DNA of 37,168 nt, from contig DWZK01000083.1 in assembly GCA_019117605.1 (NCBI GenBank), forward strand, positions 1 to 37,168. The letters are read 5' to 3'. Positions 8,895 through 19,315 of this stretch are shown one piece after another. Each line of letters opens with the position of its first letter. Position 1 is the stretch's first letter. Both the position numbers and the translations under genes were made by a program. Under the pieces are notes generated by a model. The model was not told where the DNA came from and ran no database searches. It worked only from the letters and a program-made list of their open reading frames with translations. This DNA is from Candidatus Intestinimonas stercoravium. GTDB lineage: Bacteria > Bacillota > Clostridia > Oscillospirales > Oscillospiraceae.

Positions 8895-10805
8895 TTACTC
8901 CAGCTCGAAGGCGCCGGTGTACAGCTGATAATACTGTCCGCGCTGCTGGATGAGCTGATCATGTGTGCCGCGCTCGATGATGCGGCCGTGGTCCAGGACC
9001 ATGATCACATCGGAATTGCGTACGGTGGAGAGCCGGTGGGCGATGACGAACACTGTCCGCCCTTCCATCAGGGCGTCCATGCCCCGCTGGACGATGGCCT
9101 CGGTGCGGGTGTCGATGGAGGAGGTGGCCTCGTCCATGATCATCACCGGGGGATCTGCCACAGCGGCCCGGGCGATGGAGAGGAGCTGCCGCTGGCCCTG
9201 GGAGAGGTTCTCTCCGGTACCGGAGATCATGGTGTCATACCCCTCCGGCAGCCGGGTGATGAAGTCGTGGGCCCCCGCCAGCTCGGCGGCGGCGATGCAC
9301 TCCTCGTCGGTGGCGTCCAGCCGCCCATAGCGGATGTTCTCCATGACGGTGCCGGTGAAGAGGTTCGTGTCCTGGAGCACGATGCCCAGGCTCCGGCGGA
9401 GGTCCGCCTTCTTGATCTTGTTGATGTTGATGCCGTCGTAGCGGATCTTGCCGTCGGCGATGTCGTAGAACCGGTTGATGAGGTTGGTGATCGTGGTCTT
9501 TCCCGCGCCGGTGGCGCCCACGAAGGCTACCTTCTGTCCCGGCTCGGCGTAGAGGGTGATGTCGTGGAGCACGGTCTTCCCCGGCTCGTAGCCGAAGTCC
9601 ACCCCGAACAGCCGCACATCGCCGGCCAGCTTGGTATAGGTGACGGTGCCGTCTGCCTTGTGGGGGTGCTTCCAGGCCCAAAGATCGGTGCGCTCGCTGG
9701 TCTCGTGGAGCTGGCCGTCCGCGTCTTCGGTGGCGTTGACCAGCTCCACATAGCCGTCGTCCTTCTCCGGCTCCTCGTCCAGGAGGTCGAAGATACGCCC
9801 GGCGCCCGCCAAGCCCATGATCACCGCGTTGAGCTGATTGGACACCTGGCTCACGTTGCCGGCGAACTGCTTGGTCATGTTGAGGAAGGGCACCGCGATG
9901 CTGATGCTCATGGCCGCGCCGGAGATGCTCACATTGGGGGCCCCGGTGAACAGGAGGATGCCCCCTACCAGAGCCACCACCACATAGAGCACGTTGCCCA
10001 CATTGTTGAGGATGGGCATGAGCATATTGGCGAAGCGGTTGGCCTGCTCGGAATTCCGGAAGAGCTCATCGTTGAGCGCATCGAAATCGGCCTCGCTGGC
10101 CCGCTCATGGCAGAAGACCTTGATGACCTTCTGGCCGCTCATCATCTCCTCCACGAAGCCCTCCACCTTGCCGAGGGCGCTCTGCTGGCGGACGAAGTAT
10201 TTGGAGGAGTTTCCTCCCACCTTCTTGGTGATGAGGGTCATGCTCACCACCCCGGCCAGCACCACCAGTGTGAGCCACAGGCTGTAGTAGAGCATGATAC
10301 ACAGCACCGAGAGCACGATGATGCCGGACACCATGAGCTGGGGGATGCTCTGGGAGACCATCTGGCGCAGGGTATCGATGTCGTTGGTGTAGTGGCTCAT
10401 GATATCGCCGTGGTTATTGGTGTCAAAGTATTTGATGGGCAGGTCCTGCATACCGTTGAACATCTTCTCCCGGAGCTTTTTCAGGGTGCCCTGGGTGATG
10501 ACCGCCATCATCTGGGTGTAGGCCACCGAGGCCACCAGAGAGAGGACATAGAACGTGACCAGAAGGGCCACCATCCCCAGGATATGGCCTCCTACCGCGT
10601 CCCAGTCGCCGGACTGCCAGCTCTGCTCCACAGTGGCGATGACCTGCTGCATGAAGATAGAGGGGATGGAGCTGACCACCGCGTTGAAGATGATGCACAC
10701 CACCACGGTGGGCATGAGGACCGGGTAGAATTGGAAGAGGGTCTTGATGATACGCCCCATGACCCCCGTCCTCCGCTGCCCGGGAAGATCGCTGTTATGC
10801 CTCAT
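8895..10805 (-). CDS. ABC exporter half-transporter, canonical NBD (permease + ATPase)
   Basis: Walker A GATGAGKTT, signature LSQGQ, Walker B VMIMDEATSSID, H-loop IAHRLST; MRHNSDLPGQRRTGVMGRIIK start. Confidence 0.95.
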   Translation of the reverse strand: MRHNSDLPGQRRTGVMGRIIKTLFQFYPVLMPTVVVCIIFNAVVSSIPSIFMQQVIATVEQSWQSGDWDAVGGHILGMVALLVTFYVLSLVASVAYTQMMAVITQGTLKKLREKMFNGMQDLPIKYFDTNNHGDIMSHYTNDIDTLRQMVSQSIPQLMVSGIIVLSVLCIMLYYSLWLTLVVLAGVVSMTLITKKVGGNSSKYFVRQQSALGKVEGFVEEMMSGQKVIKVFCHERASEADFDALNDELFRNSEQANRFANMLMPILNNVGNVLYVVVALVGGILLFTGAPNVSISGAAMSISIAVPFLNMTKQFAGNVSQVSNQLNAVIMGLAGAGRIFDLLDEEPEKDDGYVELVNATEDADGQLHETSERTDLWAWKHPHKADGTVTYTKLAGDVRLFGVDFGYEPGKTVLHDITLYAEPGQKVAFVGATGAGKTTITNLINRFYDIADGKIRYDGININKIKKADLRRSLGIVLQDTNLFTGTVMENIRYGRLDATDEECIAAAELAGAHDFITRLPEGYDTMISGTGENLSQGQRQLLSIARAAVADPPVMIMDEATSSIDTRTEAIVQRGMDALMEGRTVFVIAHRLSTVRNSDVIMVLDHGRIIERGTHDQLIQQRGQYYQLYTGAFELE

Positions 10806-12540
10806 CCTGATCGCCTCCCTTGTTCTGAGACAGATAGGTCTCGCGGTAGATCTCGTTGCCCGCCAGGAGCTCCTCATGGGTGCCCACGGCCTGGATGGCG
10901 CCGCCCTCCATGACCAGGATCCGGTCGGCGTCCTGGACGGAGGAGATCCGCTGGGCGATGATGATCTTGGTGGTGTCCGGGATATACTCCCGGAATGCCT
11001 TGCGGATCATGGCGTCGGTCTTGGTGTCCACGGCGCTGGTGGAGTCGTCCAGGATCAGGATCTTGGGCTTTTTCAGCAGGGCCCGGGCGATGCACAGCCG
11101 CTGCTTCTGACCGCCGGAGACATTGGTGCCCCCCTGCTCGATGTAGGTGTCGTAGCCCTTGGGGAACTGGGTGATGAACTCGTCCGCCTGGGCCAGCTTG
11201 CATGCCTCCACCAGCTGCTCGTCGGTGGCGTCGGGGTCGCCCCAGCGCAGGTTCTCTTTGATCGTACCGGAGAAGAGGACGTTCTTCTGGAGCACCATGG
11301 CCACCTGATCCCGCAGGGCGTCCAGGTCGTAATCCCGCACGTCCCTGCCGCCCACCCGCACCGTGCCCTCGGTGACGTCATAGAGCCGGGGGATGAGCTG
11401 TACCAGGGTAGACTTAGAGGTCCCGGTGCCGCCGATGATGCCGATGGTCTCGCCGGACTTGATGTGGAGGTCCACATTGGAGAGGGCCATCCGCTGTGCC
11501 TTGGCGGAGTAGCGGAAGCTGACGTTCTCGAAGTCGATGGATCCGTCGGCCACCTCTTCCACCGGATCGGCGGGAGCCGTGATGGTGCTCTCTTCCCTGA
11601 GCACCTCCACGATACGCTGGGCCGACTCCTCCGCCATGGTGATCATGACGAAGACCATGGAGAACATCATCAGGCTGCTGAGGATCTGGAAGCTGTAGGT
11701 GAGCAGGGCGGACATCTGTCCCACGTCCAGATCCAGTCCCTGGCTGGTGATGATGGTATAGGAGCCGAAGGACAGTGTGAACGCCATGACGCTGTACAGG
11801 CTGAACTGCATCAGGGGCGTGTTGAAGGCCAGGATGCGCTCGGCCCGGGTGAAGTCCCGGCACACGTCCTCCGCCGCCCGGCCGAACTTCTCCTTCTCAT
11901 AGTCCTCCCGGACGAAGGCCTTCACCACGCGGATGCCCTTGATGTTCTCCAGCACCGACTCGTTCAGGGCGTCGTATTTCTTGAAGACCCGCTTGAAGAG
12001 CGGCATCACCTTGTGGATGATGGTGAAGAGGCCGATGCCCAGGATAGGGGCCACCACCAGGAAGATGAGCGCCATCTTTCCCCCCATGACCGCCGCCATG
12101 GAGAAAGAGAACACCAGCATCAAAGGCGAGCGGATGGCCACCCGGATGAGCATCATATAGGCCATCTGCACGTTGGTGATGTCCGTGGTCAGACGGGTGA
12201 CCAGAGACGAGGTGGAGAACCGGTCGATGTTCTCGAAAGAATAAGTCTGGATGCGGTAGAACATGTCCTTCCGCACGTTGCGGGCGAATCCCGCGGAGGC
12301 CGTGGCGGAAGCGCTGCCCGCCGCGGCGCCGAAGGCCAGAGACAGCCCCGCCATCACCACCAGTAGGAGCCCGTATCTCCCTATCACATCCAGCCCGCAG
12401 CCCGCCTTGATCTCGTTGACCAGGTTGGCGATGACCAGCGGGATCAGGCACTCCATCACTACCTCCAGGCTCACCAGCACCGGCGAGAGGATGGAAGGCC
12501 GCTTGAATTCCCGTATGCACTTCATCAGTTCCCGTATCAT
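10795..12540 (-). CDS. ABC exporter half-transporter, degenerate NBD
   Basis: Walker A GGTGTSKST, signature VSGGQ, Walker B ILILDDSTSAVD, H-loop position IAQRISS; MIRELMKCIREFKRPSI start; stop overlaps the next gene's ATG (ATGAGGCATAA). Confidence 0.95.
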   Translation of the reverse strand: MIRELMKCIREFKRPSILSPVLVSLEVVMECLIPLVIANLVNEIKAGCGLDVIGRYGLLLVVMAGLSLAFGAAAGSASATASAGFARNVRKDMFYRIQTYSFENIDRFSTSSLVTRLTTDITNVQMAYMMLIRVAIRSPLMLVFSFSMAAVMGGKMALIFLVVAPILGIGLFTIIHKVMPLFKRVFKKYDALNESVLENIKGIRVVKAFVREDYEKEKFGRAAEDVCRDFTRAERILAFNTPLMQFSLYSVMAFTLSFGSYTIITSQGLDLDVGQMSALLTYSFQILSSLMMFSMVFVMITMAEESAQRIVEVLREESTITAPADPVEEVADGSIDFENVSFRYSAKAQRMALSNVDLHIKSGETIGIIGGTGTSKSTLVQLIPRLYDVTEGTVRVGGRDVRDYDLDALRDQVAMVLQKNVLFSGTIKENLRWGDPDATDEQLVEACKLAQADEFITQFPKGYDTYIEQGGTNVSGGQKQRLCIARALLKKPKILILDDSTSAVDTKTDAMIRKAFREYIPDTTKIIIAQRISSVQDADRILVMEGGAIQAVGTHEELLAGNEIYRETYLSQNKGGDQDEA

Positions 12541-12771
12541 GGCGACTCTGTGCTCCTCCTTCTTCTTTTGATCTCTTGGCGCCGCGCCCCGCCCTGCCGC
12601 CCGTCTCCGCTCTCCCACCGGGCGGACCGGGCGCTGCCGCCCAAGACAATACTTATCATTTTAGCATGATCCGCCCGCCCACACAATCCGCCATTTCTTC
12701 TGATCAGATGATTCGCATCTTAACGAATTTTGTAGGTTTTGGGCACAGGACCTCCCCCGCTTTTGCAAGAC

Positions 12772-12825: not shown

Positions 12826-13800
12826 ATGGAGCTGTTGGAGGGCGGCGGCGAGCTGCTCTTGGCCTGCCGGGAAGAGGCGGACGGGATCTGCATCCTGCGC
12901 TGTGTCTCCTCCGGCGGGACGGTGGTCCTGCCGGAGCAGATCCGGGGCCTTCCGGTGACCTCCCTGGGCCCCTATGCCCTGTCGATCCGGGAGCCCCGGC
13001 TGGAGGCCGTGGACATCTTCTGGGTGCGGATGACCTGTGGTGGGCCGGAACCTGTCCACGACGCCGCCGCTGTCTCCCGCGCAGCGCTCCCCTCCACCCT
13101 CCGGCGTCTGGGAGACTATGCCTTCTACGGCTGCCGTGGCCTGCGCTCCCTCTCTCTCCCCGATGGGACCGCTCTGGGCAGCGAGCCCTTCATGAACTGC
13201 TCCGCCCTCGACCGGCTGGAGCTCACCTCCCGCCCCGGTGTGCGCACCTCCCTCCGTGCCCTCCTGGCCGAGTGCACGGGAGATGTGGAGGTGGCGCTCC
13301 GGCTGCCCGGCGGGGAGGAGGCCCGTCTCTTCTTCCCCGGCTATGCGGAGAGCCTGGAGCTCCTCGCCGCCCCCCACATCTTCCAGACCCGTATCCAGGG
13401 GGGCGGCTATGCCTTCCGGCAGTGCTTCCAGGACGGGGCGCTCCGCTTCGATCAGTATGATGGCTGCCTCTCCCGGCTGCTGGAGGCCCACGACTTCTCC
13501 GCCGCCTGCCGGGTGGCTCTGCGCCGCCTGCGCTGGCCGGTGTCCCTCTCCGCCCCGGCGGAGGAGCGATACCGCCAGGTCCTCTCTCTCCATGGAGAGC
13601 TGGCCGCCGGGCTGCTGCTGGAGGAGCGGGACGGAGAGGGGCTGGCCTTCCTCCTCTCCCTCCATATCCTCTCCCCCGCCGCCCTGACCGCCGCCTGCGA
13701 CCGGGCCCGCCAGCTGGGCGACGCCGGGGCCCTGGCCCCGCTGCTGGAGGCCCAGCGGTCCACCGGAGGCCGGGGGCTGGACAAGTCTTTCGACCTGTGA
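12826..13800 (+). CDS. BspA-type leucine-rich-repeat (LRR_5-like) protein
   Basis: GTVVLPEQIRGLPVTSLGPYAL, LPSTLRRLGDYAFYGCRGLRSLSLPDGT, GSEPFMNCSALDRLEL repeats. Confidence 0.8.
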   Translation: MELLEGGGELLLACREEADGICILRCVSSGGTVVLPEQIRGLPVTSLGPYALSIREPRLEAVDIFWVRMTCGGPEPVHDAAAVSRAALPSTLRRLGDYAFYGCRGLRSLSLPDGTALGSEPFMNCSALDRLELTSRPGVRTSLRALLAECTGDVEVALRLPGGEEARLFFPGYAESLELLAAPHIFQTRIQGGGYAFRQCFQDGALRFDQYDGCLSRLLEAHDFSAACRVALRRLRWPVSLSAPAEERYRQVLSLHGELAAGLLLEERDGEGLAFLLSLHILSPAALTAACDRARQLGDAGALAPLLEAQRSTGGRGLDKSFDL

Positions 13801-13805
13801 GGTGG

Positions 13806-15134
13806 ATGATGGCAGAAGATCAGAAGTGGCAGGACCTGGGAGAGAAGATCCTCTCCGCCGCCCGGACAGAGCTCTATCTGGAGCTCCCCTTCCTGGATGC
13901 CGCCCTCTGTGCCCTGCGCCCCGCCCGGGGCTTCGACACCCCTACCATGGCCACCGACGGGGCCCTCCTCTATTACAGCGGGGCGTGGCTGGCCTCCCGG
14001 TATGAGCGGAGCCGGGCCCTGGTGTGCCGGGCCTGGCTCCACCTCCTCTTCCACTGCATCCTCCGCCACCCGGCCAAGCGGCAGGGCCGGGACGGGGCCC
14101 TGTGGGACCTGTGCTGCGACATCGCGGTGGAGCACCTGCTGGACCGGCTCCACTACCCCTGTCTGGCCGCCCCGGAGGCGGTGAGCAAGCGGGAGGCCCT
14201 CTATGCCCGGCTGGGCGGGGACCGGCGGCCCCTCACCGCCGAAGCGGTATACCGCCAGTTCCGCCGGGAGCGGCTGCCCGCCTATGAGCAGGCCGGTCTG
14301 GTCCGGGAGTTCTATCGGGACGACCACTCCCTCTGGGAGCGCACCCGCTCCCAGGGGGATGAGGAGACTTGGCGCCGGGCCGCAGAGCGGGTGCAGACCA
14401 ATATGGAGACCCTCTTCCACGAGAGCGCCGCCGGCGGGGAGGCGGTGCTGGAGCAGCTCCGGGTGGAGGGCCGGGAGAGGCACGACTACCGGGCCTTCCT
14501 CCAGCGCTTCGCCTCCCTGGGCGAGGAGCTGGGCGTAGACCCGGACGCCTTCGACTACGGCTATTACGCCTACGGCCTGCGGCTGTACGGGGACCTGCCC
14601 CTGATCGAGCCTCTGGAGACCCGGGAGGTCCGGCGGATCCGGGATCTGGTGGTGGCGATCGATACCTCCATGTCCACCTCGGGGGAGCTGGTCCGCCGGT
14701 TCCTCTCCTACACCTATTCGATCTTGCAGGAGACGGAGAGCTTCTTCCGCTCCTTCCGCCTGCGCATCCTCCAGTGCGACGATCAGCTCCGCTCCGACCG
14801 GGCGATCGGCAGCGCGGAGGAGCTGCGGGCCTATATGGACCAGTTCCAGCTCATCGGGCAGAGCGCCACCGACTTCCGCCCCGTGTTCCGCCGGGTGGAG
14901 GAGCTCCAGCGGCAGGGCGAGCTCCGGGACCTGCGGGGCCTGCTCTACTTCACCGACGGCCTGGGGATCTATCCCAGCCGCCGCCCGCCCTTCGAGACCG
15001 CCTTCGTCATGCTCTCCGGCCAGGGCTTCCCCGAGCGGGTGCCCCCCTGGGCGATCCGGGTCCTGCTGGACGAGGACGAGCTCTCGGTCCTGGAGGCCGG
15101 TCCGGAAGACCTATCCGAGGAGGATATCCTATGA
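13806..15134 (+). CDS. VWA-like domain protein with DUF2201-type (putative metallopeptidase-like) N-terminus
   Basis: MIDAS-like VVAIDTSMSTSGELV and LLYFTDGLG; N-terminal ARSRALVCRAWLHLLFHCILRHPAKR...WDLCCDIAVEHLLD; GTG at 13797 is an alternative start. Confidence 0.85.
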   Translation: MMAEDQKWQDLGEKILSAARTELYLELPFLDAALCALRPARGFDTPTMATDGALLYYSGAWLASRYERSRALVCRAWLHLLFHCILRHPAKRQGRDGALWDLCCDIAVEHLLDRLHYPCLAAPEAVSKREALYARLGGDRRPLTAEAVYRQFRRERLPAYEQAGLVREFYRDDHSLWERTRSQGDEETWRRAAERVQTNMETLFHESAAGGEAVLEQLRVEGRERHDYRAFLQRFASLGEELGVDPDAFDYGYYAYGLRLYGDLPLIEPLETREVRRIRDLVVAIDTSMSTSGELVRRFLSYTYSILQETESFFRSFRLRILQCDDQLRSDRAIGSAEELRAYMDQFQLIGQSATDFRPVFRRVEELQRQGELRDLRGLLYFTDGLGIYPSRRPPFETAFVMLSGQGFPERVPPWAIRVLLDEDELSVLEAGPEDLSEEDIL

Positions 15135-16648
15135 ACATCAAGCGCGCGAAAGAAGAGATACAGAACACCGTCCGGGCCTATCTGGCGAAGGACGCGTACG
15201 GCTCTTACCGCATCCCCCAGCTGCGGCAGCGGCCCGTCCTCCTCATGGGCCCGCCCGGTATCGGCAAGACCCAGATCATGGAGCAGATCGCCGGGGAGCT
15301 GGGGGTGGGCCTGGTCTCCTACACCATCACCCACCACACCCGGCAATCCGCCCTGGGCCTGCCCTTCATCCGGGAAGAGACCTTCGGCGGCCGCTCCTTC
15401 TCGGTCACCGAGTACACCATGAGCGAGATCCTGGCGGCGGTGTGGCGGCAGATGGAGGCCACCGGGATCAAAGAGGGCATCCTCTTCCTGGACGAGATCA
15501 ACTGCATCTCCGAGACCCTGGCCCCCATGATGCTCCAGTTCCTCCAGTGCAAGACTTTCGGCAACCAGCGCCTCCCCGAGGGCTGGGTCCTGGCGGCCGC
15601 CGGGAACCCGCCGGAGTATAACAAGTCGGTGAGGGAGTTCGACGTGGTCACCCTGGACCGGGTCAAGCGGATGGACGTGACCGCCGACTACGGCGTGTGG
15701 AAGGAGTACGCCCGGCGGAAGGGGCTCCACGGGGCCATCCTCTCCTACCTGGAGCTGCACAAAGAGGACTTCTACCACGTGGAGCGCACCGCCGACGGCC
15801 TCCAGTTCGTCACCGCCCGGGGCTGGGAGGACCTCTCCGAGCTGCTCCAGGCCTATGAGGCCATGGATATCCCGGTGGATCGGGACGTGGTGGGCGCCTA
15901 CCTCCAGCTCCCCCGGATCGCCCGCTCCTTCGCCGACTACTGGGTCCTCTACCGCCGCTATAAAGAGGTCTACCATGTGGACGAGATCCTGAAGGGGCGC
16001 TGGCAGCCCGTCGTGGCCAGCGAGCTCGCCTCCGCCCCCTTCGACGAGCGGCTGAGCCTCCTGGGCCTCCTCCTCTCCCGCCTGAGCGAAGAGGCCCGCC
16101 AGACCTGGGAGCTGGACGCCCTGGCCGACGCCCTCCACGGCGACCTGCTGGCGGTGAAAGGGGCCCTGGACCAGACGCCCCCCGCCCAGGTCCTCCGGGA
16201 GCGGGCCGGGGCCCTGGAGGCCGGCCTCGCCCAAAAGGAGGCGGCCGGCTCCTCCGACCGGGACGCGCGGCGGCGGTCGCTGGCCCGGCTGGAGCGGTTG
16301 GGGGCCTATCAGGCCCTGCTGGAGCGGGAGGCTCCGGGGGACGGCGGCGGGGCCTTCGCCCTGCTCAAGGATGCCTTCCAGGAGGACGTGGCCCGCCGGG
16401 CCCAGGCCGCCGTGGAGACGGGCGCCCACCTGGAGCACGCCTTCGCGTTCCTGGAGGCCGCCCTGGGGGAGAGCCAGGAGATGGTCGTCTTCGCCACCGA
16501 GCTCACCGCGGGCTTCCACACCTCTTGGTTCATCCAAAGCTTCGGGTGCGAGGCCTATTACCGCCACAACCAGTCCCTCCTCTTCCACGATGTCCGGCAG
16601 CAGCTCCTCCAGGACATCGCCGGGCTCCGGCAGGCTCAGGAGAGCTGA
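15131..16648 (+). CDS. MoxR-like AAA+ ATPase
   Basis: Walker A VLLMGPPGIGKTQIM, Walker B GILFLDEINCI, sensor-like VLAAAGNPPEYN; ATGA overlap with the VWA gene. Confidence 0.92.
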   Translation: MNIKRAKEEIQNTVRAYLAKDAYGSYRIPQLRQRPVLLMGPPGIGKTQIMEQIAGELGVGLVSYTITHHTRQSALGLPFIREETFGGRSFSVTEYTMSEILAAVWRQMEATGIKEGILFLDEINCISETLAPMMLQFLQCKTFGNQRLPEGWVLAAAGNPPEYNKSVREFDVVTLDRVKRMDVTADYGVWKEYARRKGLHGAILSYLELHKEDFYHVERTADGLQFVTARGWEDLSELLQAYEAMDIPVDRDVVGAYLQLPRIARSFADYWVLYRRYKEVYHVDEILKGRWQPVVASELASAPFDERLSLLGLLLSRLSEEARQTWELDALADALHGDLLAVKGALDQTPPAQVLRERAGALEAGLAQKEAAGSSDRDARRRSLARLERLGAYQALLEREAPGDGGGAFALLKDAFQEDVARRAQAAVETGAHLEHAFAFLEAALGESQEMVVFATELTAGFHTSWFIQSFGCEAYYRHNQSLLFHDVRQQLLQDIAGLRQAQES

Positions 16649-16678
16649 GGCACTATCCCCTGACAAAGGAAGTCTGAT

Positions 16679-19315
16679 ATGAAACGATCGGTCATCGGTA
16701 TACTGGCCCATGTGGACGCGGGGAAGACCACCCTGTCCGAGGCCATGCTCTACCTGGGCGGCCAGCTCCGGAAGCTGGGCCGGGTAGACCACCAGGACGC
16801 CTTCCTGGACACGGACGCGCAGGAGCGGGAGCGGGGCATCACCATCTTCTCCAAGCAGGCCATCCTCCCCCTGCCGGAGATGGAGATCTCCCTGCTGGAC
16901 ACCCCCGGCCATGTGGACTTCTCCAGTGAGATGGAGCGCACCCTCCAGGTCCTGGACTGCGCCATCCTGGTCATCAGCGGCTCCGACGGGGTGCAGGGCC
17001 ATACCCACACCCTCTGGCGGCTCCTGGAGCGCTACCACGTCCCCACGTTCCTCTTCATCAACAAGATGGACCTCCACGGCGCGGACCGGGCGGCCCTGCT
17101 CTCCGAACTGCGCAGCCGCCTGGACGAGGGCTGTGTGGACTTCACCGCCGGGCAGGACCCAGCCGCTGTCTGGGAGCAGGCCGCCATGTGCGACGAGGCC
17201 GCCCTGGAGCGGTTCCTGGAGGAGGGCGAGCTGGACCGGGACACGGTGGCCCGGCTGATCCGGGAGCGGAAGCTCTTCCCCTGCTGGTTCGGCTCCGCCC
17301 TGAAGCTGGAGGGGGTGGGGGACTTCCTGGAGGGCCTCCAGCGCTACGCCGTCTCCCCGGCGTGGCCCGCCGCTTTCGGGGCGAAGGTATACAAGATCGC
17401 CCGGGACGCCCAGGGGGCCCGCCTCACCTATCTGAAGGTCACCGGCGGGGCTCTGAAGGTGAAGGCCCTCCTCACCGGCCCGGACTGGCAGGAGAAGGTG
17501 GATCAGATCCGCCTCTACTCCGGCGCCCGCTTCCAGACGGCGGAGGAGGTCCCCGCCGGGACCGTGTGCGCGGTCACCGGGCTCAGCCACACCCGGCCCG
17601 GTCAGGGCCTGGGCCGGGAGGCCGCCTCCGAGCCCCCCGCTCTGGAGCCGGTGCTCACCTATCAGCTCCTCCTCCCCGAGGGCTGCGACCCCCACACCGT
17701 CCTCCCCAAACTGCGGCAGCTGGAGGAGGAGGACCCCCAGCTCCATCTGACGTGGAGCGAGCACCTCCGGGAGCTCCACGTCCAGCTCATGGGAGAGGTC
17801 CAGCTGGAGGTCCTCCAGCGGCTGATCCGGGCCCGGTTCGGCCTGGAGGTGTCCTTCGGCCCGGGGAACATCCTCTACCGGGAGACCATCACCGACACGG
17901 TGGAGGGGATCGGCCACTTCGAGCCCCTGCGCCACTACGCTGAAGTGCACCTGCTGCTGGAGCCCGGAGAGCGGGGCAGCGGGCTCCAATTCGCCACCGC
18001 CTGCCCGGAGGATATGCTGGACCGGAACTGGCAGCGGCTGGTCCTCACCCATCTGGAGGAGCGCTCCCATCGGGGCGTCCTCACCGGCTCCCCCATCACC
18101 GATATGCGCATCACTCTCCTGGCCGGCCGGGCCCATGTGAAGCACACCGAGGGGGGCGACTTCCGTCAGGCCACCTACCGGGCGGTGCGGCAGGGGCTCA
18201 TGCAGGCCCACAGCCTCCTGCTGGAGCCCTGGTACGCCTTCCGGCTGGAGGTGCCCGCCGCCTCGGTGGGCCGGGCCATGTCGGATATCCAGCGGCTGGG
18301 CGGCTCCTTCCACCCCCCCGAGGCCCTGGGGGACAGCGCCCTCCTCACCGGCTCCGCCCCGGTGTCCACCTTCCGGGATTACGCCGCCGAGGTGGCGGCC
18401 TATACCAAGGGGCTGGGCCGCCTTTCGCTCTCCCTCCAGGGCTACGAGCCCTGCCACGACCAGGAGGCGGTGGTGGCCTCCCTGGGCTACGACCCGGAGC
18501 GGGACGTGGACGACCCGCCCGACTCCGTCTTCTGCTCCCATGGGGCGGGCGTAGTGGTGAAGTGGGACCAGGTACGGGAGCATATGCATGTGGACAGCGG
18601 CTTCCGCCCGGCGGGCGCCGCCCCTGCGGAGGATGCCCCCGCCTCTCCCCCGCCCCGGACCTCCTACGCCTCCTCCCTGGAGGCGGACAAGGAGCTCCAG
18701 GCCATCTTCGAGCGCACCTACGGCAAGGTGGAGCGCAATGCCTTCCAGCCGCCGCCCAAGCCCGCCCGCACCAGTCTGGACGACCGGAAGTATGACATCA
18801 AGGCCCGGGACCAGGGGCCGGAGTACCTGCTGGTGGACGGCTACAACATCATCTACGCCTGGGATGAGCTCAAGGCCGTGGCCCAGGAGAACATGGACGC
18901 CGCCCGGCAGCTCCTGATGGACCTGCTCTCCAACTACCAGGGCTTCAAGAAGTGCGTGGTCATCCTGGTCTTCGACGCCTACAAGGTCCCCCGGAACGTG
19001 GGCGAGGTGGTCCACTACCACAACATCCATGTGGTGTACACCAAGGAGGCGGAGACCGCCGACGCCTATATCGAGAAGGCCACCTACGAGATCGCCAAGC
19101 ACCACCGGGTGCGGGTGGCCACCTCCGACGGAGCCGAACAGCTCATCATCCTGGGGCACGGGGCCCTTCGGATCTCCGCCCGCACCTTCCGGGCGGAGGT
19201 GGAGGCGGTGGAGGGGCAGATCTCCGCCATCCTGGCCGCCAGCCGCCGGCAGAACAAGTCCAAGCCGGTCCAGGCCGCCTTCGAGGCTGCCCAGAGGGGC
19301 CGGAAGGAGGGCTGA
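16679..19315 (+). CDS. TetM/EF-G-like translational GTPase fused to a C-terminal YacP/Rae1-like NYN domain
   Basis: G1 AHVDAGKTT, G2 RERGITI, G3 DTPGHVDF, G4 NKMD; EF-G-like C-terminus TKGLGRLSLSLQGYEPCHD; then NYN EYLLVDGYNIIYAW...VILVFDAYKVP...KEAETADAYIE...VATSDGAEQ from about aa 715. Confidence 0.93.
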   Translation: MKRSVIGILAHVDAGKTTLSEAMLYLGGQLRKLGRVDHQDAFLDTDAQERERGITIFSKQAILPLPEMEISLLDTPGHVDFSSEMERTLQVLDCAILVISGSDGVQGHTHTLWRLLERYHVPTFLFINKMDLHGADRAALLSELRSRLDEGCVDFTAGQDPAAVWEQAAMCDEAALERFLEEGELDRDTVARLIRERKLFPCWFGSALKLEGVGDFLEGLQRYAVSPAWPAAFGAKVYKIARDAQGARLTYLKVTGGALKVKALLTGPDWQEKVDQIRLYSGARFQTAEEVPAGTVCAVTGLSHTRPGQGLGREAASEPPALEPVLTYQLLLPEGCDPHTVLPKLRQLEEEDPQLHLTWSEHLRELHVQLMGEVQLEVLQRLIRARFGLEVSFGPGNILYRETITDTVEGIGHFEPLRHYAEVHLLLEPGERGSGLQFATACPEDMLDRNWQRLVLTHLEERSHRGVLTGSPITDMRITLLAGRAHVKHTEGGDFRQATYRAVRQGLMQAHSLLLEPWYAFRLEVPAASVGRAMSDIQRLGGSFHPPEALGDSALLTGSAPVSTFRDYAAEVAAYTKGLGRLSLSLQGYEPCHDQEAVVASLGYDPERDVDDPPDSVFCSHGAGVVVKWDQVREHMHVDSGFRPAGAAPAEDAPASPPPRTSYASSLEADKELQAIFERTYGKVERNAFQPPPKPARTSLDDRKYDIKARDQGPEYLLVDGYNIIYAWDELKAVAQENMDAARQLLMDLLSNYQGFKKCVVILVFDAYKVPRNVGEVVHYHNIHVVYTKEAETADAYIEKATYEIAKHHRVRVATSDGAEQLIILGHGALRISARTFRAEVEAVEGQISAILAASRRQNKSKPVQAAFEAAQRGRKEG

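Follow-up and report, generated by a model that had tools for sequence, protein, structure and literature searches.

A translational GTPase fused to a Rae1-like nuclease domain in Candidatus Intestinimonas stercoravium, and its replacement of stand-alone Rae1 in Clostridia

The window analysed here is a stretch of 37,168 nucleotides from Candidatus Intestinimonas stercoravium. It contains, at positions 16679..19315 of the plus strand, a complete gene coding for a translational GTPase fused to a Rae1-like nuclease, which was identified from its open frame, its translation and full-length orthologs. A single open frame runs from an ATG start at 16679 to the stop at 19315 and encodes 878 amino acids, bearing out the uninterrupted reading frame described in the first-pass annotation. 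Seven nucleotides 5' of the ATG, the sequence AAGGAAG (16666..16672, plus strand) was read as the likely ribosome-binding site. The gene is preceded by a DUF2201 (metallopeptidase/VWA-like) gene and an AAA ATPase gene, a MoxR-VWA-like arrangement at 13797-16648 which ends 30 bases before the fusion gene, and is followed on the opposite strand by a gene similar to the small subunit of glutamate synthase. Further upstream, two adjacent ABC exporter genes of an ordinary kind were identified on the minus strand (8895-12618).

When the flanks of 110 oriented loci carrying the fusion were clustered, no gene family was present in more than ten loci, and therefore no conserved neighbour or operon partner was identified; the families that did recur look generic, and the fusion protein looks self-contained. 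A search for defence systems with PADLOC gave no match. In a crude scan for a possible drug-inducible attenuator upstream of the gene, terminator-like hairpins were found near the start of 19 of 104 fusion genes versus 7 of 98 control genes; in the window none was found.

The N-terminal part of the protein consists of a GTPase domain (aa 5-224; 16691..17350, plus strand; Pfam GTP_EFTU, E 5.7e-48) with the motifs AHVDAGKTT, RGITI, DTPGH and NKMD, followed by EF-G-like domains II to V (aa 235-595; 17381..18463, plus strand), which were assigned by Pfam and by Foldseek matches to EF-G. Pfam identified EFG_III, EFG_IV (397-510) and EFG_C (514-595). The EF-G_D2 match for domain II is weak and sub-threshold, yet the fold of this domain matches EF-G. 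In domain IV, the tip loop (aa 484-498, RAHVKHTEGGDFRQA; 18128..18172, plus strand) was located by alignment with Tet(M), Tet(O) and EF-G and by its conservation. The GTPase part ends with a conserved C-terminal extension (aa 604-637; 18488..18589, plus strand) of the pattern Y604 ... D609 ... SVFCSHGAG ... W629 ... H637, which is common to unfused relatives.

A linker (aa 640-715; 18596..18823, plus strand), mostly disordered as judged from AlphaFold2 pLDDT, connects this part to an NYN_YacP (Rae1) nuclease domain (aa 717-864; 18827..19270, plus strand). The AlphaFold2 model was built from an alignment of 61 sequences and has a mean pLDDT of 88, with both halves modelled confidently and values below 50 at residues 647-668 and 689-708 of the linker. 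Between these segments a helix was modelled (667-681), which corresponds to the conserved motif ELQAIFERTYG (ELxAIFERTYG; aa about 667-682, window 18677-18724) in an otherwise variable, disordered linker of 61-144 residues among the 110 orthologs. This helix is a possible docking element. The nuclease domain had been placed from about aa 715 (nt 18821) onwards in the first-pass annotation, and this was correct, with the Pfam match starting at 717 and the first modelled strand at 716. A separate translation of the nuclease from an internal start is not a general feature of the family, since an ATG preceded by a Shine-Dalgarno-like sequence was found in only 23 of the 110 orthologs.

Proteins with the same full-length architecture and 49-74% identity were identified in the genus, the family and the order. 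Of 11 genomes sampled from the genus, ten hold relatives, in one case only as a piece at a contig end. In one sample the architecture was found in 18 families of the class Clostridia, and it occurs in 80 named contigs, among them those of Intestinimonas, Flavonifractor, Anaerovorax, Fusibacter, Ruminococcus flavefaciens and many Lachnospiraceae. Because the architecture recurs from the genus up to these families and named loci, and altogether in more than 100 genomes, a chance open reading frame, a chimeric contig or another assembly artefact was ruled out. The architecture itself is not a discovery, since Tet proteins of ten clostridial species with a YacP-like NYN RNase domain were reported by Atkinson 2015 (PMC4342817), where a role in resistance was suggested. 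The protein of the window is almost certainly a member of this group. No functional work on the GTPase-NYN fusion was found in a literature search in which the primary Rae1 papers were partly covered.

For the GTPase part, A10, V12, D13, G15-T17, T55, D74-G77, K129 and D131 are invariant in 110 fusions, and the catalytic His78 is retained in 109 of them. The GTPase motifs listed in the first-pass annotation are thus all present, with a core that is invariant or nearly so, and their retention including His78 suggests that GTP hydrolysis is under selection. With these motifs and domains II to V, the protein belongs to the translational GTPase superfamily; a sequence search of the PDB matched the GTPase part to EF-G, Tet(O) and Tet(M), and Foldseek matched it to EF-G with an E-value of about 1e-52. 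It scored 268 bits against the EF-G equivalog model TIGR00484, below the cut-off of 659. Separate EF-G-like genes are present in the genome of the window, and EF-G forms a separate clade in the GTPase tree.

The 2015 proposal of an RNase-based resistance mechanism (PMC4342817) and the automatic name both imply that the fusion is a Tet-family protein conferring resistance to tetracycline or another A-site drug, with the RNase gained as an extra mechanism. The nearest curated model is indeed tet_protect (NF012153), the overall architecture is that of EF-G and Tet, with about 640 residues and domains G to V as in Tet(M) and Tet(O), and the gene moves between genomes and sits on some large plasmids. 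However, the fusion reaches 386 bits in this model, about half of the cut-off of 775, while Tet(M) and Tet(O) reach 877 and 852 bits, and its identity to these proteins is about 27%. In the tree, the fusion and its unfused relatives form their own clade (support 100, stem 0.87), outside the clade formed by Tet(M), Tet(O) and an OtrA-like protein (support 99). The tip loop differs as well, with KHTEGGDFR in fused members and most unfused ones versus YYSPVSTPADFR in Tet(M), and the SPVST loop of Tet is absent from all members. Pro509 of Tet(M), which occupies the tetracycline site (PMC8161019), aligns with Lys488 of the fusion, a lysine in 109 of 110 members, whereas His486 (107 of 110) corresponds in the alignment to a histidine at the tip of EF-G that Tet proteins do not have. 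Genuine Tet genes are present alongside the fusion in three genomes (G004, G008 and G062). On score, tree and tip loop, an identity as Tet(M)-type resistance protein was rejected, and with it the TetM-type label of the first-pass annotation; resistance as the function of the fusion is considered quite unlikely. The group classed as Tet in 2015 is here found to lack the Tet tip loop and to form a clade of its own, and drug-arrested complexes, named earlier as a target, become just one of several possible triggers, since the GTPase is not of the TetM type.

A fused member from Agathobacter rectalis (L153:4971-7772) carries the automatic name of a TetM/TetW/TetO/TetS resistance protein, which is probably wrong for the whole family. 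Another subfamily of Tet-like GTPases (L126:1381-3417 and L165:5924-7873) shares 35-37% identity with the protein of the window. With the tip loops HTIHTHPLDF and HVVHTKAPDF, it belongs neither to Tet nor to the fused family.

The assignment of the C-terminal region to NYN/YacP was confirmed by a profile match to PF05991 (E 1.9e-48) with 165 bits versus a curated cut-off of 24.6. In a sequence search of the PDB, this part matched only B. subtilis YacP/Rae1, aligning with the solved structures 5MQ8 and 5MQ9 with an E-value of 1e-24. The acidic positions, described as intact in the first-pass annotation, proved to be conserved throughout: the aspartates D720, D766, D795 and D817 are invariant in 110 of 110 orthologs and occupy the same positions in free Rae1, E799 is likewise invariant across the 110 aligned fusions, and every catalytic-core position of free Rae1 is retained in the fused domain. 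B. subtilis Rae1 and the fusion thus share the same nuclease domain, with the four aspartates and the surrounding motifs; B. subtilis Rae1, however, is a free protein of about 170 amino acids, while in the fusion the nuclease is tethered to a GTPase. In addition, about half of the fused domains have lost a C-terminal tail which free Rae1 proteins conserve, and this suggests a dependence on the GTPase. Among the suppressors of efp that inactivate rae1, one carries the substitution R166P close to the C-terminus of the B. subtilis protein (PMC6613710); together with the loss of the tail, this would fit a GTPase that has taken over docking.

For Rae1, mRNA cleavage in the A site of the ribosome is reported (PMC6613710, PMC12320835), and an entry into stalled ribosomes was proposed (PMC10100781). 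A different substrate for the fused domain, rRNA or tRNA, cut for maturation or for a shut-off of translation, is highly improbable. NYN_YacP proteins were first proposed to act in rRNA or tRNA maturation (Anantharaman and Aravind 2006, as cited in PMC4342817), and free rae1 adjoins the rRNA methylase gene rlmB; but the characterised relative acts on A-site mRNA, and neither an antitoxin or conserved partner gene at the 110 loci nor a PADLOC match was identified.

The distribution of the fused and the stand-alone nuclease was analysed in 128 Clostridia genomes, comprising that of the window and others which are at least 90% complete. The nuclease is fused in 47 of these genomes, stand-alone (about 170-215 amino acids) in 38 and absent in 43; none contains both forms, while about 14 would be expected to do so under independence (hypergeometric P 4e-10, uncorrected for kinship). 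One of the 47 fused genes, that of G083, is split by a frameshift. Among the matches listed from 392 genomes, only G308 clearly holds both forms intact, with its free rae1 copy between rlmB and sigH. The fused domain is the only PF05991 match in the genome of the window (82% complete), and the same was found for the near-complete genomes G004 and G008 of the same genus.

Stand-alone rae1 is located between rlmB and sigH in G144, G133 and G090, and the fusion gene sits elsewhere. In the fusion genomes in which this locus is readable, it is either empty or contains a broken rae1. In G158 and G057, rlmB and sigH are adjacent with no rae1 between them. Broken copies were detected in the gap with a profile of stand-alone proteins in three fusion genomes from three families, G061 (E 5e-12), G376 (E 1.6e-13) and G445 (E 1.1e-9), and a weak trace was detected in G154 (E 0.01). 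G090, which belongs to the same genus as G061, has an intact rae1 at the locus and no fusion. The mutual exclusion of the two forms and the remnants of rae1 at its old locus show, at the level of genome sequences, that the fusion has replaced stand-alone rae1 in much of the Clostridia, and since the genomes with a broken rae1 belong to different families, this replacement occurred repeatedly. In a tree of NYN domains, the fused and stand-alone forms separate with few exceptions and modest deep support, a pattern more in line with a single ancient fusion and its later spread. Small open reading frames of 163-165 amino acids in G243, G214 and G158 (L295, L296 and L297), which match NYN_YacP weakly at positions 3-49, lie away from the rlmB-sigH locus and code for a different small protein.

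Replacement of Rae1 stands out as the new finding of this analysis and the one with the best support. Mutual exclusion with rae1 would not be expected of a resistance gene, and where a resistance role was given to the group in 2015, the fusion is here found to take the place of stand-alone rae1. The replacement also makes the link to Rae1 stronger than could be known from the window alone at first pass. The replacement shows a shared nuclease function, but not delivery of the nuclease by the GTPase.

The GTPase also occurs without the nuclease domain. In four genomes (G064, G067, G093 and G107) it is present with no PF05991 match anywhere in the genome, so that the GTPase has its own role apart from the nuclease, and in two others (G099 and G144) it is found beside a separate rae1. 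Unfused GTPases were identified on Ligilactobacillus salivarius megaplasmids as well; one of them (L152:4529-6920), with 50% identity over the GTPase part, adjoins rpsN (S14) and a gene for a 'putative metal homeostasis protein', which may point to a remodelling of ribosomes when metals are limiting. A first tree had hinted that the L. salivarius GTPase is a fusion which lost its NYN domain; the clade test gave a p-AU of 0.52, and this idea was dropped.

From the occurrence of the GTPase alone or beside a free rae1, and from the long and disordered linker, it might be argued that one polypeptide simply carries two independent activities, a GTPase with its own ribosomal task, such as back-up translocation or release, and an NYN domain working unaided as an ordinary Rae1. 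Yet the fusion is old and was kept across many families, both halves and the linker helix are strongly conserved, splitting is rare in the sample, and the many fused domains without the tail of free Rae1 suggest reliance on the GTPase, so that independence of the two halves is unlikely.

The reading favoured here, to which a probability of about 0.6 is given, is that of a GTPase-coupled Rae1, in which the EF-G-like module would engage ribosomes, probably stalled ones, and the nuclease would cut their mRNA. EF-G-type factors put domain IV in the ribosomal A site. Domain IV and Rae1 target this same site and would be mutually exclusive there, and therefore a sequential action in two steps is proposed. 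The EF-G-like module in its GTP form would dock on the factor-binding site of a ribosome with an empty or blocked A site, candidate targets being stalled, paused or drug-arrested ribosomes. The tip of domain IV (KHTEGGDFR) would be placed at the decoding centre, followed by GTP hydrolysis and release, so that binding of the GTPase may select and reset the ribosome. By this, the NYN domain would be held beside the A site on its flexible linker, which at 61-144 residues is long enough for sequential action, and would cut the A-site mRNA once domain IV has moved out. The cleaved complex would then be open to tmRNA or another rescue pathway and to mRNA decay.

That the competition for the A site forces a two-step model counts against the GTPase-coupled reading, and the GTPases without an NYN domain and the retention of both forms in G308 also point against it. 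The earlier idea of a factor which brings an RNase to ribosomes nevertheless fits everything found and is plausible; its nuclease part stood, with the PF05991 and Rae1 matches, while its Tet identity did not, given the score, the tree and the tip loop.

A functional analogy is provided by MutS2 of B. subtilis, a ribosome-rescue protein which combines an NTPase and a nuclease-type domain and splits ribosomes without mRNA cleavage, and by SmrB of E. coli, which cleaves mRNA at collided ribosomes (PMC10897456). The domains of these proteins (ABC ATPase and SMR) are unrelated to those of the fusion. More tentatively, and at somewhat less than even odds, the fusion may represent a new class of bacterial ribosome-rescue factors, in which a dedicated translational GTPase would check or empty the A site before an mRNA-cutting Rae1 takes over the ribosome in cis, and which arose by an old fusion, spread through the Clostridia and displaced the free nuclease. 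If this is true, the fusion would in effect be a one-protein no-go-decay machine.

Few bacterial nucleases are known to cleave mRNA within the ribosome, Rae1 among them, and for its choice of ribosomes the widely conserved natural fusion to a translational GTPase names a candidate delivery step, which can be tested on a single protein. For gut bacteria such as Agathobacter, a gene labelled TetM/TetW/TetO/TetS is more likely to serve translation quality control, and since it also lacks the key Tet residue, resistome counts which include the fusion may be inflated. A gene that is present in many gut Clostridia and often filed under 'tetracycline resistance' is thereby recast as one that probably serves ribosome rescue or mRNA decay.
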